64,000 bases of DNA from Thermomicrobiales bacterium (GTDB taxonomy: Bacteria; Chloroflexota; Chloroflexia; Thermomicrobiales; UBA6265): contig JAUJOZ010000001.1 of the NCBI GenBank assembly GCA_030447415.1, forward strand, positions 124,001 through 188,000, given 5' to 3'. Numbering within the stretch: the stretch's first letter is position 1; every line of letters begins with the position of its first letter. A model generated the notes under the pieces. The model searched no databases. It saw nothing but the letters and a program-made list of their open reading frames with translations, and was not told the origin of the DNA. The position numbers and the translations under genes were made by a program. Shown here piece after piece: positions 13,826 through 29,382 of this stretch.

Positions 13826-14104
13826 TGACCGCTCCTCTACTCCTTCGCGAGCTCCCAGCTCCTGGCCCGGTCATGGTCACCCGCAGCCGCGGCGTGGCGG
13901 CGCGGGCTGCTACGCCCATTATGAACCATGGCGGGCGGAGAGGAGCGGCCGCGAGGCGTCGAGGCGCGCGACATTAACGGCGCCTCCTGGGCCGCCAGCC
14001 GGTCGAGTAGCCCCACTTGCCGGTCGAGCTGCGTCGCCAGAGGCCGCGATGGTGAAAGGGCTTCACCCTTTGCATGCTGGGCGGAGTTGCGGCGTTGGGA
14101 CGGG

Positions 14105-14130
14105 GAGGGGCGTCGCACGAGGCGCCCCTC
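14105..14130 (-). terminator. Hairpin downstream of lpd
   Basis: GAGGGGCG at 14105-14112 pairs with CGCCCCTC at 14123-14130 over a 10-base loop. It lies 33 bases past the lpd stop, in the 337-base gap before E1alpha. No U-run follows, so it could be an attenuator or an mRNA stabiliser that adjusts expression within the operon. Confidence 0.35.
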
Positions 14131-14162
14131 GCGCCGTTCTCCCCGACTGTTCGACCCTTCGC

Positions 14163-15656
14163 CTAGATGTGGATGGGGTGACCGAGCAGATCGTGCGCCG
14201 CCTCGCCGAGAACTTCGGAGACGGTCGGGTGCGGGTGGACGTTGAGGGCGATCTCCATCGCCGTGCTGTCCAGCAGCCGGCCGAGCGCCGCCTCGGCGAT
14301 CAGCTCGGTGGCGTGCGGGCCAATGATGTGGACACCGAGCAGGTCGTCGGTCTCGGCGTCGGACACCATCTTGGTGAAGCCGTCCGCCTTCCCCTCGATC
14401 ACCGCCTTGGCGTTCGGGCGCATTGGGAAGCGGCCGACCCGGACCGTGTGTCCGAGCTTCTCTGCCTCCCGCGCCGTCAGGCCAACGCTTCCGATCTCCG
14501 GCTCGCAGTAGGTGCAGCACGGGGAGTTGAGGATGTCGAGCGGATACGGATTGTGGTCGCAGATGTGCTCGACGGCGATGATCCCCTGGTGCATTGCGGT
14601 GTGGGCCAGGAGCTGCTGCCCGTTGACGTCGCCGATGGCGTAGACGTGCTCGACGTTGGTCCGCATCATCGGGTCGACCGCGTCGCCGATGGCGTAGACG
14701 TGCTCGACGTTGGTCCGCATCATCGGGTCGACCGGGATGTATTCCCCTTCGGTCTTGACCCCAACCTCCTCCAACCCGATGTCCTCGATGTTGCCCTGGC
14801 GGCCGATGCCGACGAGCAGGACCTCGGCCTCGACCACCCGCTCCTTGCCCTTGCTGTCGGTGAGGCGCATCGTTACGCCGTTGTCGGTGACGTCGATGTC
14901 CTCCGCGGTCGGGCGCGCATCGGGGGCCAGATCCATCTTCTGGCGCTGGAAGGCGCGGGTCAGGTGCTCGGAGATCTCGTGGTCCTCCTGCGGCACGATC
15001 CGGCCGACGAGGGTGACCTTGGCGCCGTAGCGATGGTAGGCCGAGGCCCACTCGACGCCGGTGGCGCCGCCGCCGCGGACGATGAAGCTCTTCGGCAGGT
15101 GCTCCAGCACCACGGCGTGGTCGGAGTTGATGACCCGGACGCCGTCGTAGGGAACCCCCTTGATCGGGCGCGGGCGGGAGCCGGTGTTGATGATGACGTC
15201 GCGCGCCTGGAGGGTGAAGACCGGACTCCCGTCGTTCGGCGTCACCTGGACGGAGGTCGGACCGAGGAGCCGGCCACGACCCATGTAGACGGGGATGCGG
15301 TGCTTCTTGTCGAAGAGATAGAGGAGGCCGCGGTACTGGCCGTCGACGACCTTGAGCGATCGGCCGAGGGCCGTCTCGTAGTTGAACGACACGTCGCCGC
15401 CGACGTCGATCCCGAATTCCTTGGCCTTCTTGACTTCGTCGAAGACATCGGCCGACTTCAGAAACGCCTTGGTCGGGATGCAGCCACGGTGGAGGCAGGT
15501 GCCGCCGAGCTTGAGCTCTTCGACGACGGCGACGTTGAGGCCAAGCTGCTTGGCGCGGATGGCGGCGACGTAGCCGCCCGTTCCCCCGCCGAGGAGGACG
15601 AGGTCGTACTGGTGCTGAGACTGCTGGTCCTGAGCGGGGTCGGCCATTGAAGTCAT
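14163..15656 (-). CDS. lpdA: Dihydrolipoamide dehydrogenase (E3) with an internal 18-residue duplication
   Basis: FAD-dependent enzyme that reoxidises dihydrolipoamide with NAD+. The FAD-binding GGGTGGYVAA is near the N-terminus and the redox-active disulfide is Cys54/Cys59 in GGTCLHRGCIPTK. The dimerisation domain closes with HVHPHPTVSEVLGEA, providing the catalytic His-Glu. An exact tandem duplication repeats VDPMMRTNVEHVYAIGD, the segment containing the second FAD-contacting GD motif. Length is about 497 residues, roughly the duplication longer than usual. The start is ATG at 15656 or 15647, both close to AGGGAG. It is the first gene of the dehydrogenase cluster. Confidence 0.92.
   Translation of the reverse strand: MTSMADPAQDQQSQHQYDLVLLGGGTGGYVAAIRAKQLGLNVAVVEELKLGGTCLHRGCIPTKAFLKSADVFDEVKKAKEFGIDVGGDVSFNYETALGRSLKVVDGQYRGLLYLFDKKHRIPVYMGRGRLLGPTSVQVTPNDGSPVFTLQARDVIINTGSRPRPIKGVPYDGVRVINSDHAVVLEHLPKSFIVRGGGATGVEWASAYHRYGAKVTLVGRIVPQEDHEISEHLTRAFQRQKMDLAPDARPTAEDIDVTDNGVTMRLTDSKGKERVVEAEVLLVGIGRQGNIEDIGLEEVGVKTEGEYIPVDPMMRTNVEHVYAIGDAVDPMMRTNVEHVYAIGDVNGQQLLAHTAMHQGIIAVEHICDHNPYPLDILNSPCCTYCEPEIGSVGLTAREAEKLGHTVRVGRFPMRPNAKAVIEGKADGFTKMVSDAETDDLLGVHIIGPHATELIAEAALGRLLDSTAMEIALNVHPHPTVSEVLGEAAHDLLGHPIHI
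14627..14734 (-). repeat. Exact 54-bp tandem duplication inside lpdA
   Basis: 14627-14680 and 14681-14734 are identical over 54 bases. The unit is a multiple of three and keeps the frame, adding 18 residues that contain the AIGD motif of the FAD domain. It could be real slippage duplication or an assembly artefact. Confidence 0.95.
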
Positions 15657-15922
15657 CACTCCCTGGTGTGTCGGTTTGGTGGTCGCGCGCCGCCGGCGGC
15701 ACCCGGACGAGCCGGAGGGCGCCGGCAACCGCCCCGGTCCGTCGGAGCTCGGCCGCGCGGAGGATACCCAGTCGAAGTATACGACGCCCTCGGTACGGCA
15801 AAGCCGCCACGACCGTGCTCGGTCGATGGGCGAACGCATCTTCCCGTTGAGCGTCCGACCCGTTAGGCTTCTCGCGCCGCCGCCCGCGCGTCTATCCGAC
15901 CAAGGTCGAGGAGGATCTGGAG

Positions 15923-16717
15923 ATGGAGACCGCCAATGTCGTCACCGCGGGGAGCCCGCTCCCCGACCTCGTCCTCCCCCGCCTCGACGGCGGCGAACTG
16001 CGCTTGGCGGACCTCCGCGGAACGAAGCTGCTCCTCTTCTTTTGGGGCTCGTGGTGAGGCTGCCGCGAGCAGCTGCCCGGGTGGCAGCGGTTCTGGGAAG
16101 CGCATGACGCGAGTGACTTTGCGTTGGTCTCGGTGGCGGTGGAGCACCTGGGCGCCGACGCCGCGCGTGGGTTCGTCGAGGCGGCCGGCGCCGCGTTTCC
16201 CACGGTCGTCGACGAGCATGGTATCTCCAGCGAGCGATTCGGCTTCAAGGTCGTGCCGAATGGCGTGCTCGTGGACGAGGACGGGACCATCCGCTATGTC
16301 AAAGAGGGCGGGTTCTCAGTCGAGAACGCTGAGGACGTGGCGACGGTGGAGCGGTTTCTCGGCGGGGAGGATCCTGGGATCGCGGAAAGCGGCCGGGCGG
16401 CGTACGCGCTCGGTCCGGTCGAGCGGGAGCTAATCGCGACGAGGGTGCGACTCGGCCGGATGCTCGTCGCGCAAGGCCGGCGCGCCGAGGCGGTGGCGGA
16501 GTGGCGGGGAGCGCTCCGGCTCGACCCCGAGAACTTCGTGATCCGCAAGCAGATTTGGGCTGCCGAGCACCCCGAGAAGTTCCACCCGACGATTGACTTC
16601 GACTGGCAGCGGGAACAGCTCCGCAAAGAGCGGGAAGAAGAGGTCGCCCAGGGCATCTGCGGGCCGGACGGCTGCCCGGTGCCGCGGCGCCCTCGACCCG
16701 CGACCGGTCCGTCGTAG
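15923..16717 (+). CDS. Redoxin/TlpA-like protein with TPR tail; probable selenoprotein (in-frame TGA at codon 45)
   Basis: The 264-codon frame is open except for one TGA at 16055-16057. Translated through, the active site reads FFWGSW-U-GCREQLPGW, so U replaces the first Cys of the thioredoxin WCxxC motif (one residue shorter: UxC). Downstream the thioredoxin fold continues (FALVSVAVEHLG, AFPTVVDEHG, KVVPNGVLVDEDGTIR with the cis-Pro). A TPR-like helix pair follows (LGRMLVAQGRRAEAVAEW) and a tail with CGPDGCP. The start ATG 15923 is preceded by GAGGAGGATCTGGAG. Gene callers would report only the part from about 16124. It is likely a cytoplasmic thiol/peroxide redox enzyme. The alternative is a nonsense-mutated Cys protein. 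Confidence 0.8.
16055..16088 (+). promoter_or_regulatory. Candidate Sec codon (TGA) and bacterial SECIS-like hairpin
   Basis: TGA at 16055-16057 is followed 14 bases later by a perfect 6-bp stem: GCTGCC (16072-16077) pairs with GGCAGC (16083-16088) around the 5-base loop CGGGT. The loop begins 20 bases after the TGA and contains G residues and a U, as in bacterial SECIS loops recognised by SelB. The hairpin is inside coding sequence, as expected in bacteria. Function is inferred. Confidence 0.6.
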
Positions 16718-17499: not shown

Positions 17500-17594
17500 C
17501 GTGCCTCGCCTCCTCTGTCGGATCCGCCCGGTGCGCCGCGCGGACCGGAACCGCCCAGCGCATCACCCCTCGAGATGCAACCGGCGTGCCGTCG

Positions 17595-18483
17595 TCAAAA
17601 ACCGGGGCGCTCCAATCCGACCACCTCCCAATCGAGGACCCGGCGTCCGTCCGCGACGGTGTAGGTGGCAAGTTGCTTCCCCTGGCGGCTGCACGTGTCT
17701 TCCGACTTGCCGGAGATTTGGGCCAGCGTGCTGAGCGGCATCCGCCACCCCTCCGACCAGCCGCGGGCGACGAGGTCGCTCGGCAGCTTCGTCTTTGGCG
17801 GCTCCGTGCGGATGACGTGGACGATGGCGCCGGCGGTCGGGGCGACGGCGCCGAGGCCGGGGTTGCGGACGACGGCGAGCTCGGTTTCCACGCCGGCAAC
17901 GCGTGCCCGCAGGACGCCGATGGTCGCCTCCTGCTCGGCGACCTGGCGCCGCAGCCGCGCGTTCTCCGCCGCAGCGCGGCCAGCTCGTCGCGGAGGTCGG
18001 CGCAGAGGTCGGTCGGTTGGTCGTTGGTTGGTCGCTCGGCCGTCTGGTCGGTTGGTTGGTCGGTCGCAGGTCGGTGGGGAACCGGTCCGATCGGCGGGCG
18101 GGGCTGGCAGTGCCGTCGAGCGCCGTCTGGATCGTGCGCTCACCGTAGGTCGTGCCGCCGCGGCGCTGGTCCCATTTGTCGCGCATCAGGCCGCCGGCGC
18201 GGAAGAGGCGGTCGAGCTGGCCGGGGTCGGTGACGCCGGCGCGGACGAGGTGGCAGCAGCAGCCGAGGTCGGCCTCGCTCTGGCTGCGGTACTCGCCGGG
18301 ATTGCCGTCGTCGTAGAGGCGGCGGAACCGGGCCGAACGGCGGGCGTGCTCGAGGATCTCCTCGTCGTCTAGGTCAAGCGAGGGCGCTGGCGTCGCGCCG
18401 TTGGGCTTGGGCTGCGGCTTCGCCACCGGCGGGAAGGTCTCGGCGTGCCACGCGGCCAGCTCCGCGCTCCGGTCCTGGATCAC
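17595..18483 (-). pseudogene. Replication-associated protein: NrS-1 polymerase-like helix-bundle domain, coiled coil and C-terminal DNA-binding-like region (frameshifted)
   Basis: GTG at 18483 begins directly after the TGA of the small upstream gene. The N-terminal part shows ILEHARRSARFRRLYDDG, SQSEADLGCCCHL and LDRLFRAGGLMRDKWDQR, which match the helix-bundle domain that follows the primase domain in NrS-1-type polymerases. A low-complexity Pro/Thr tract then disrupts the frame. Beyond it another frame gives a coiled coil (AAENARLRRQVAEQEATI) and a region (MPLSTLAQISGKSEDTCSRQ) resembling a winged helix. At least one frameshift lies near 17985. It is likely a phage or plasmid remnant. Confidence 0.6.
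18004..18075. repeat. Simple GGTCGGTTGGT-type repeat tract
   Basis: Short degenerate units of GGTC, GGTT and GGTCG alternate across about 70 bases inside the replication-associated gene. The reading frame changes in or beside this tract, which is a natural place for polymerase slippage. Confidence 0.6.
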
Positions 18484-18484
18484 G

Positions 18485-18622
18485 TCATATCCCGGCAGCG
18501 GGCGCAGACACGACGAGCGCCGGCACGCAAGGGCCGCCCACACCCGCCGCAAGGTCGCGGCGCGGCATCGGCCGGGATTCGGACGCGCGGCCACACGGCG
18601 GGCACGCCACGAGCATCGCCAT
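18485..18622 (-). CDS. Small Cys-containing protein, 45 aa
   Basis: ATG at 18622 is preceded by GGAGGTGATC, a near-perfect complement of the 16S 3' end, 9 bases upstream. The product starts MAMLVACPPCGRASESRP (one CxxC) and ends with TGA at 18485-18487. Two bases after it, the GTG of the next gene starts, so the two are translationally linked. It was missed by length cut-offs. The function is unknown; a half zinc ribbon is possible. Confidence 0.5.
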   Translation of the reverse strand: MAMLVACPPCGRASESRPMPRRDLAAGVGGPCVPALVVSAPAAGI

Positions 18623-18810
18623 GACGTGATCACCTCCGCGGGGGGGCCGGTCGGTTAGCCGATGCCGGCAAACCTGCGCCTCACCCCACCAGCGCGGCCC
18701 CTGCGGGCGTCACACACCTCGCCGTGACTTCCTTTTGCGAAGTGGATCGCGCGGGTGTAGCCTGGGCGGCATCCGAATCCGCCCTCGGCCCACTCGAGAA
18801 GGGCTGTCCC

Positions 18811-27982: not shown

Positions 27983-28318
27983 TCACCCGGCGGGGTGGGT
28001 TGGCGCCGGGGCGTGGTCGCCAACGGCCTGCGCGACGGCGTCGGCCGTGATCGCGCAGTGGGAGGCGGACCAGACGGCCCGTCCGTCCCGGAGCACGATT
28101 ACCTGAGGCGACTCGTGACGCACGCCCGTGCGCGTCGCCACTTCCTGTCCGAGCTTGCGGTGCCGGCGCACGTCCACGACAAGCACGTCGATGTCGATCT
28201 GGCCCACCGCCTGGTAGGCACGCGCACTGCCCCCTCACCCGGGGTCGTGCAGGAACAAGACCACCGGACGCGCATGCGATCGCTCCCACGCCCGGTCCAG
28301 CCCCGAGATGTCGCTCAC
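27983..28318 (-). CDS. YtxJ/DUF2847 thioredoxin-fold protein; probable selenoprotein (in-frame TGA at codon 28)
   Basis: 111 residues. GTG 28318 overlaps the yihY stop as GTGA. One TGA interrupts the frame at 28235-28237: VVLFLHDPG-U-GGSARAYQ. In YtxJ-type bacilliredoxin-like proteins the same place reads HSTTCPVSAAAY, so U aligns exactly with the conserved Cys. Both sides are strongly conserved: ISGLDRAWERSHARPVVLF before, and IDVLVVDVRRHRKLGQEVA, TGVRHESPQVIVLRDG and VWSASHCAITADA after. A gene caller sees only the part after the TGA. It is likely a cytoplasmic low-molecular-weight-thiol or thiol redox protein. A nonsense mutation is the alternative. Confidence 0.82.
28202..28237 (-). promoter_or_regulatory. 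Candidate Sec codon (TGA) and SECIS-like hairpin in the YtxJ-like gene
   Basis: On the minus strand, 15 bases after the TGA, GCCTACC (28219-28213) pairs with GGTGGGC (28208-28202) in a 7-bp stem with one G-U pair and the loop AGGC. The loop starts 22 bases past the TGA, almost the same spacing as in the redoxin gene. SelB recognition is inferred. Confidence 0.55.
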
Positions 28319-29382
28319 GGCAACGAGACGCGCCGCCGCCAATGCCGCCGCGGTGCAGGCCGCCGCCCGGTCCGATGGGCCCGCGCCTTCTCGCCAATGG
28401 CCCGCCCCGTCTCGGCCGGTGGTGGCTCGACCGCACGCGGGCGGCGGTAGGAGGCGTTGACGTAGCAGCCGAAGAGCAGCACGTGCGCCAGCGCGGCGAA
28501 CCAGGCCACCAGCAGGGAGACCAGCCCCAGCGCCGCCCCGTACCGGTTCACCCCGCCGGCCAGCCGCAGGTAGAGCGGGAAGGCCTGGCCCAGCGCCACG
28601 AACAGCGCCCCCGCTACCAGCGCCCCGGGCCACACGTCGCCCAGGCGCTGGCCGGCCGTCGGCACGTAGCGGTAGAGCAGCACGAACAGGGCGGTAGCCA
28701 CGACGAAGGCGAGCAGGTAGCTGAGCGCTTGCCCGCCGCCGCCAGCCAAGGCCCAGGTCCCGAAGTAGGGGCCAAGATCTCGGCCCACGAACAGCGTCGG
28801 CAGCGCGGCGGCGAGGGCGGCCGCCGAGAAGAAGGCGGCGAACCCGACGACAGCGAGCAGTCCTCGCCGGCGGGAGCAGATGAAGCCGCAGTCGGGGACG
28901 CCGTAGACCCGGTTGAAGCAGTGGTTGAGGGCGCCGACGAAGCCGGTGCCGACCCAGGCGAAGCCGAGCAGGCTGGCCGCGGCGAACCAGCCACTTTGGC
29001 GGCGGGCGGTCAAGGCGGCCTCCAGCGCGTCGCGTGCGGCCTCGCCCGGCAGCGCCCAGTAGGCGGCGTGGACGGCGGTGGTGAGGACCGCGTCGCGGCG
29101 CAGGAGGAGGCCGGCGACGGAGACCAGGAGGAGGAAGGTTGGGACGAGGGCGACCAGGGCGTTGTAGGCGATGATGGCGGCCAGGTGCCCGGCGCCGGTC
29201 TCCTGGAACCCCCGGACGGGCCAACTCGCCAGGAGCGCTCGGTAGCCACGCGCCAGCGCCGTCCCGCCGCCTCGCACCAGACCCGTCGGTCGGAGACCGG
29301 CCCCACGCCGATCTGGAGCGCCGGGGATGGCTGGGCGTGCGCGGTGGATGTCGCGGTGGGCAGGGATGGGGTGGAGCGCCAT
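28315..29382 (-). CDS. YihY/BrkB-family inner membrane protein
   Basis: About 355 residues from ATG 29382 with AGGAGG 7 bases upstream. It is a six-helix membrane protein: HLAAIIAYNALVALVPTFLL, AASLLGFAWVGTGFVGALNH, LLAVVGFAAFFSAAALAAAL, ALSYLLAFVVATALFVLLY, VAGALFVALGQAFPLYLRLA and LVSLLVAWFAALAHVLLFGC. GFVGALNHCFNRVYGVPD is typical of the family, whose function is not firmly known. The C-terminus is basic and cytosolic. The stop overlaps the start of the YtxJ-like gene. Confidence 0.88.
   Translation of the reverse strand: MALHPIPAHRDIHRARPAIPGAPDRRGAGLRPTGLVRGGGTALARGYRALLASWPVRGFQETGAGHLAAIIAYNALVALVPTFLLLVSVAGLLLRRDAVLTTAVHAAYWALPGEAARDALEAALTARRQSGWFAAASLLGFAWVGTGFVGALNHCFNRVYGVPDCGFICSRRRGLLAVVGFAAFFSAAALAAALPTLFVGRDLGPYFGTWALAGGGGQALSYLLAFVVATALFVLLYRYVPTAGQRLGDVWPGALVAGALFVALGQAFPLYLRLAGGVNRYGAALGLVSLLVAWFAALAHVLLFGCYVNASYRRPRAVEPPPAETGRAIGEKARAHRTGRRPAPRRHWRRRVSLP

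Follow-up and report, generated by a model that had tools for sequence, protein, structure and literature searches.

Redoxin-like selenoproteins

The ResA/TlpA/DsbE thiol-disulfide oxidoreductases are CxxC proteins that are usually exported or membrane-anchored. Among selenoproteins, the available portions of published lists include UGC-containing Prx-like and UGC-containing TlpA disulfide reductase family members (PMC2398784; PMC9312934; PMC13188914), and the corresponding portion of the GOS list sets 46 Sec forms of the UGC-containing Prx-like family against 855 Cys forms. A further described neighbor is the NCBIfam model NF041054 (ResA-like WAxxUGC); a literature search for the name WAxxUGC found no paper using it. 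Here we describe a gene of an uncultured soil Chloroflexota that standard annotation would end at codon 45 but that almost certainly encodes a selenoprotein, a ResA/TlpA-like Sec-x-Cys enzyme with a TPR tail, in which UGA 45 would be read as Sec with the aid of SelB and a downstream hairpin. Our near-certainty about the reading of the internal UGA follows from its retention in about 30 relatives together with a genome that encodes the full Sec machinery.

A redoxin gene with one internal UGA

The gene lies on the plus strand of the window (the whole 64,000-nucleotide stretch analyzed). The frame 15923-16717 translates into 264 residues with a single TGA and a terminal TAG, bearing out the original prediction of a 264-codon frame with a lone TGA at codon 45, the first catalytic position. 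Of all in-frame TGAs in the window, this one is by a wide margin the best supported by codon usage to its left and right. The thioredoxin motif that had been proposed around it (GSW-U-GCREQLP, within FFWGSW-U-GCREQLPGW) stands as regards Sec at the first catalytic position, but the spacing is that of U-x-C rather than U-x-x-C: ResA-like CxxC sequences, L014 among them, have one residue more between the redox residues. Minus-strand frames that overlap 15923-16717 and cluster in the homolog comparison were discarded as shadows of the selenoprotein gene. The features of the locus are as follows.

15909..15914, plus strand: Shine-Dalgarno sequence AGGAGG, 8 nt 5' of the ATG (direct sequence reading)
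15923..16717, plus strand: predicted selenoprotein gene with UxC redoxin domain, TPR-like tail, CGPDGCP end and TAG stop (translation, Pfam AhpC-TSA/Redoxin, dN/dS)
15947..16336, plus strand: Redoxin/AhpC-TSA (ResA/TlpA-like) domain, residues 9-138 (Pfam, profile search, structure matches)
16055..16057, plus strand: in-frame TGA, codon 45, predicted to be read as selenocysteine, first catalytic residue of UxC (TGA in about 30 homologs, Cys in two)
16061..16063, plus strand: Cys47, partner of Sec45 in U-x-C (invariant in alignments A1 and A2)
16072..16088, plus strand: SECIS-like hairpin, 6-bp stem, loop CGGGU (sequence, folding, conservation and pair counts in 29 genes)
16415..16648, plus strand: all-helical TPR-like tail, residues 165-242 (AlphaFold2 model, weak Pfam TPR_11)
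16658..16675, plus strand: C-terminal CGPDGC, Cys246 and Cys251 (alignments A1 and A2)

Pfam assigns residues 9-138 to AhpC-TSA (9.7e-16) and Redoxin (3.3e-15) and detects the weak TPR match, in agreement with the expectation that a thioredoxin fold and a TPR tail would be intact 3' of the TGA. In an AlphaFold2 model built from 22 sequences (mean pLDDT 89.1, pTM 0.85), four helices come after a thioredoxin fold; the model's best matches among solved structures are ResA and relatives (PDB 1su9, 3kcm and 3gl3; TM about 0.85 by target), 1su9 and 3kcm being matched at E about 1e-11, and profile search likewise points to a ResA/TlpA-like family. The C-terminal CGPDGCP is invariant in the main clade (alignment A1) and missing or altered in distant members (alignment A2). 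No N-terminal hydrophobic segment is seen in the protein sequence, so the product is probably cytosolic; its likely role is that of a thiol/selenol reductase or peroxidase. Against five homologs, dN/dS is about 0.2-0.36 3' of the TGA and similar 5' of it: the protein downstream of the TGA is under purifying selection.

Conservation of the TGA

In a first homolog search, which covered the gene's own genome and 60 relatives, every intact full-length homolog in the order (55-68% identity) contained a TGA within the match, at the same column and in the context W-G-S-W-U-[GR]-C-R-x-QLPGW. A GTDB genome scan returned 26 loci, hosted by Thermomicrobiales, other Chloroflexota, MAGs labeled Armatimonadaceae, Rubrobacter, Dehalococcoidia or Bacillota, and one Streptomyces; all loci that cover the site carry TGA except L061, from a Bacillota MAG (WGSW-C-RCRE), and L071, from Streptomyces sp. 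AP-93 (WGSW-C-GCRY), both of which have TGC. At a match threshold of 1e-40, 17 of 400 genomes sampled across the phylum have the gene, with an in-frame TGA throughout the matches listed except for one truncated copy that starts past the site. In sum, the TGA is kept at the codon-45 column in about 30 intact homologs in which the site can be read, and the two Cys homologs, both distant (43% and 31%), are the only ones found. Between the U and the C of the UxC motif stands G, R, S, A or V.

Since TGA occupies all site-covering loci but these two, Sec and Cys alternate at the column with Cys rare; this is the alternation that the original prediction had proposed to look for, and the outcome that it had named as fatal, a residue other than Cys in the non-Sec forms, is not what L061 and L071 carry. 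Cys homologs normally outnumber Sec forms, which makes their scarcity in the UxC subfamily unusual. Some family copies contain extra stops (one TAG in L055, two TAGs in L021, a second TGA in L012, an additional upstream TGA in L009), which suggests that in some MAGs the gene has recently decayed or been misassembled.

Selenocysteine machinery and other UGA genes

Lack of the Sec machinery, the other outcome foreseen as refuting, is likewise contradicted: the genome encodes SelA (491 bits), SelB (324 bits, encoded on the contig that contains the window), SelD (359 bits) and tRNA-Sec (64.7 bits, anticodon TCA, that is, UCA), all above curated cut-offs. The SelD match (L076; G000:C56:104499-105428) itself contains one in-frame TGA, so this SelD is probably a selenoprotein too. 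Among the UGA-bearing genomes tested, SelB is present in 12 of 14, and SelA exceeds its cut-off in most relatives; G010 and G023, UGA-bearing MAGs of one genus that are 72-75% complete, have SelA, with neither SelB nor tRNA-Sec above cut-off. As for the two Cys forms, the Bacillota MAG possesses both SelA and SelB, and in the Streptomyces genome SelA gave no match and SelB none above cut-off. The genetic code is not reassigned, because TGA, the commonest ordinary stop, terminates 14 of the window's 22 long coding-like frames.

Two more genes of this genome have a TGA within the frame.

27983-28327, minus strand: BrxC/YtxJ-family frame (PF11009, 75 bits) with TGA 28235-28237 at the redox Cys, HDPG-U-GGS (translation, Pfam)
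L098:936-1982 (G000:C17), minus strand: paralog with in-frame TGA, NF041054 WAxxUGC_long selenoprotein (551 bits)

The former is the second thioredoxin-fold TGA gene that had been announced within about 12 kb; the frame is real, and its TGA is 12.2 kb away. Its homologs L103 and L111 have Cys at the TGA position, and two more BrxC/YtxJ homologs in the same genome are both without TGA. The active site of L098 reads WASW-U-GC.

A SECIS-like hairpin

The perfect 6-bp hairpin with loop CGGGT that had been claimed shortly 3' of the TGA was located at 16072-16088 (GCTGCC-CGGGT-GGCAGC), the stem starting 14 nt and the loop 20 nt after the TGA. As described in the available part of PMC13188914, a bSECIS has a loop of 3-9 nt, a stem of 4-16 bp, a G in the first two loop positions and 16-37 nt between UGA and loop, and the hairpin satisfies the three geometric rules of that source. 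Relative to the model in its Fig 2, the window copy shares a 6-bp stem, a loop of 5 nt with GG at its positions 2 and 3, and a UGA-to-loop distance of 20 nt, but leaves the N1-N2 pair of the preferred loop unformed (C and U); the relatives' loops AGGCU and AGGUU can form that pair. A scan of the whole window against Rfam at gathering thresholds gave no match.

Folding energy is unexceptional for GC-rich DNA (z = -1.2, with 20 of 200 shuffles folding equally well) and was dropped as a proof in itself, so that support for the hairpin comes from conservation. The Leu codon in the stem ends in G (CTG or TTG) in 29/29 UGA genes, where just 51% of their remaining Leu codons do so; the contrast corresponds to about 1e-9 if the genes were independent, an optimistic figure owing to their relatedness. 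In the same 29 genes Gln CAA accompanies Leu TTG in three of three cases and CTG in none of 23, and the stem pair C19-G33 is replaced by U-A in three genes and by U-G in another three. Counted over the pairs of the stem, 95.4% of cells are paired versus 90.6% after shuffling, with a covariation score of 0.120 versus 0.063 (0/500 shuffles). These pair statistics are moderate evidence, because four of the six stem pairs are invariant and three of those four are largely fixed by the peptide.

Neighboring genes and a paired UGA gene

In four relatives (G017, G018, G012 and G009) a second UGA gene, peroxiredoxin-like and with the motif FYRGDW-U-PYCNGQL, lies directly downstream of the UxC redoxin.

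L047:6804-7484, L049:6947-7525 region and L070:6892-7455 region, also L062 and L054: UPYC peroxiredoxin-like UGA gene

In G011 both genes are on one contig, with a redoxin copy that looks decayed, and in a Rubrobacter MAG the two are paired in opposite orientation. The UPYC gene adjoins the UxC redoxin in all five relatives that have it at 1e-20, and from this arrangement the two make up a putative selenoprotein pair, conserved in five genomes of the same family and the Rubrobacter MAG. Such a tandem provides a concrete functional lead. The window's own genome has no UPYC gene at 1e-20; the neighbor of the window gene is a PRC-barrel/DUF2382 gene on the opposite strand. Elsewhere in the window, 13837-15866 holds long frames that overlap on opposite strands (657 aa on the minus strand, 533 aa on the plus strand) and are without a Pfam match, the 657-aa frame having a low third-position GC (0.48), and 17563-18633 on the minus strand encodes an NrS1-1 polymerase-like HBD domain (PF22763, 65 bits) in a protein possibly of mobile-element origin.

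Alternative explanations

The TGA could be a premature stop, in which case the gene would be a pseudogene or yield a truncated peptide of 44 residues, or it could be an assembly error. The decayed-looking copies of the family, L055 with its further TAG, L021 with two TAGs and L012 with a second TGA, lend this some color, but the same codon is found again in about 30 genomes that were assembled independently, and what follows it is a conserved protein under purifying selection; we consider a stop or an error extremely improbable. Just as hard to credit is the insertion of some other amino acid, through general recoding of UGA to Trp, Gly or Cys or through near-cognate readthrough: TGA recoding is known elsewhere, but in this window TGA is the most frequent stop codon, tRNA-Sec, SelA, SelB and SelD are all present, and homologs without the TGA have Cys, neither Trp nor Gly.

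A subtler doubt concerns the hairpin alone. The gene could be a real selenoprotein gene in which 16072-16088 merely reflects the coding of QLPGWQ, with SelB using another structure or no special structure. The CC/GG and T/A pairs of the stem are dictated by the P, W, L and Q codons, and L071, a Cys form in whose genome no Sec machinery was found, can pair into a similar stem at the same place; against this stand the G that invariably ends the stem Leu codon (29/29 versus 51%) and the co-variation of TTG and CAA at synonymous sites, CTG never occurring with CAA. On balance we judge a by-product hairpin unlikely, and we favor a selenoprotein gene whose hairpin takes part in decoding.

A proposed model for the selenoprotein and a possible partner

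We posit that SelB carrying Sec-tRNA-Sec would bind the hairpin 14 nt past the UGA, whereupon the ribosome would insert Sec at UGA 45. Sec45 would then attack a disulfide or peroxide substrate, and the intermediate would be resolved by Cys47 or by the C-terminal Cys246/Cys251 pair, which we hypothesize to act as resolving or shuttle residues. A more far-reaching scheme, which we offer tentatively and hold to be possible although on the whole doubtful, draws on analogy with the C-terminal arm of thioredoxin reductase: the gene would represent a distinct, almost exclusively Sec-using subfamily in which Sec-x-Cys works with the Cys pair of CGPDGCP on a TPR arm, and in some Thermomicrobiales it would form a two-gene selenoprotein unit with the UPYC partner, the UxC enzyme reducing the UPYC protein.

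Relation to known families

NF041054 shares with the window protein a redoxin domain with a WxxWUGC site and a TPR-like C-terminal region, and all members of alignment A2 match the model. The window protein scores 147 bits, below the cut-off of 300, with its best stretch at model positions 83-202 of 354; it is without the model's N-terminal region and has CGPDGCP in addition. Its identity to the paralog L098 is 31% over 242 aa, TPR region included. Judged by these sequence comparisons, it is a relative of NF041054 WAxxUGC_long, not a member. With ResA/TlpA/DsbE proteins it shares the fold (1su9, 3kcm, 3gl3) and the sequence profile, and it differs in having UxC rather than CxxC, in its TPR tail and in showing no evident hydrophobic segment at the N-terminus.

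The likeness to the UGC-containing Prx/TlpA-like selenoproteins, as far as the available portions of their descriptions go, extends to a PF00578 redoxin domain, Sec in a UGC motif and the existence of Cys homologs (PMC2398784; PMC9312934; PMC13188914), and by the published definition in those portions the window protein has the PF00578 domain with Sec in UGC. The difference is that x varies in the UxC of the window subfamily (G, R, S, A, V); a TPR tail is absent from the available portions of the published descriptions, and the term TPR appears nowhere in the corresponding text of the GOS paper. Because published lists already hold UGC-containing Prx-like and TlpA types, the window gene is best classed, on present sequence comparisons, as a new subfamily inside this recognized kind, set apart by its TPR tail, by the CGPDGCP at its C-terminus and by a second UGA gene that lies next to it in five relatives. 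The UGC-type selenoproteins thereby gain a well-supported subfamily from uncultured soil Chloroflexota.
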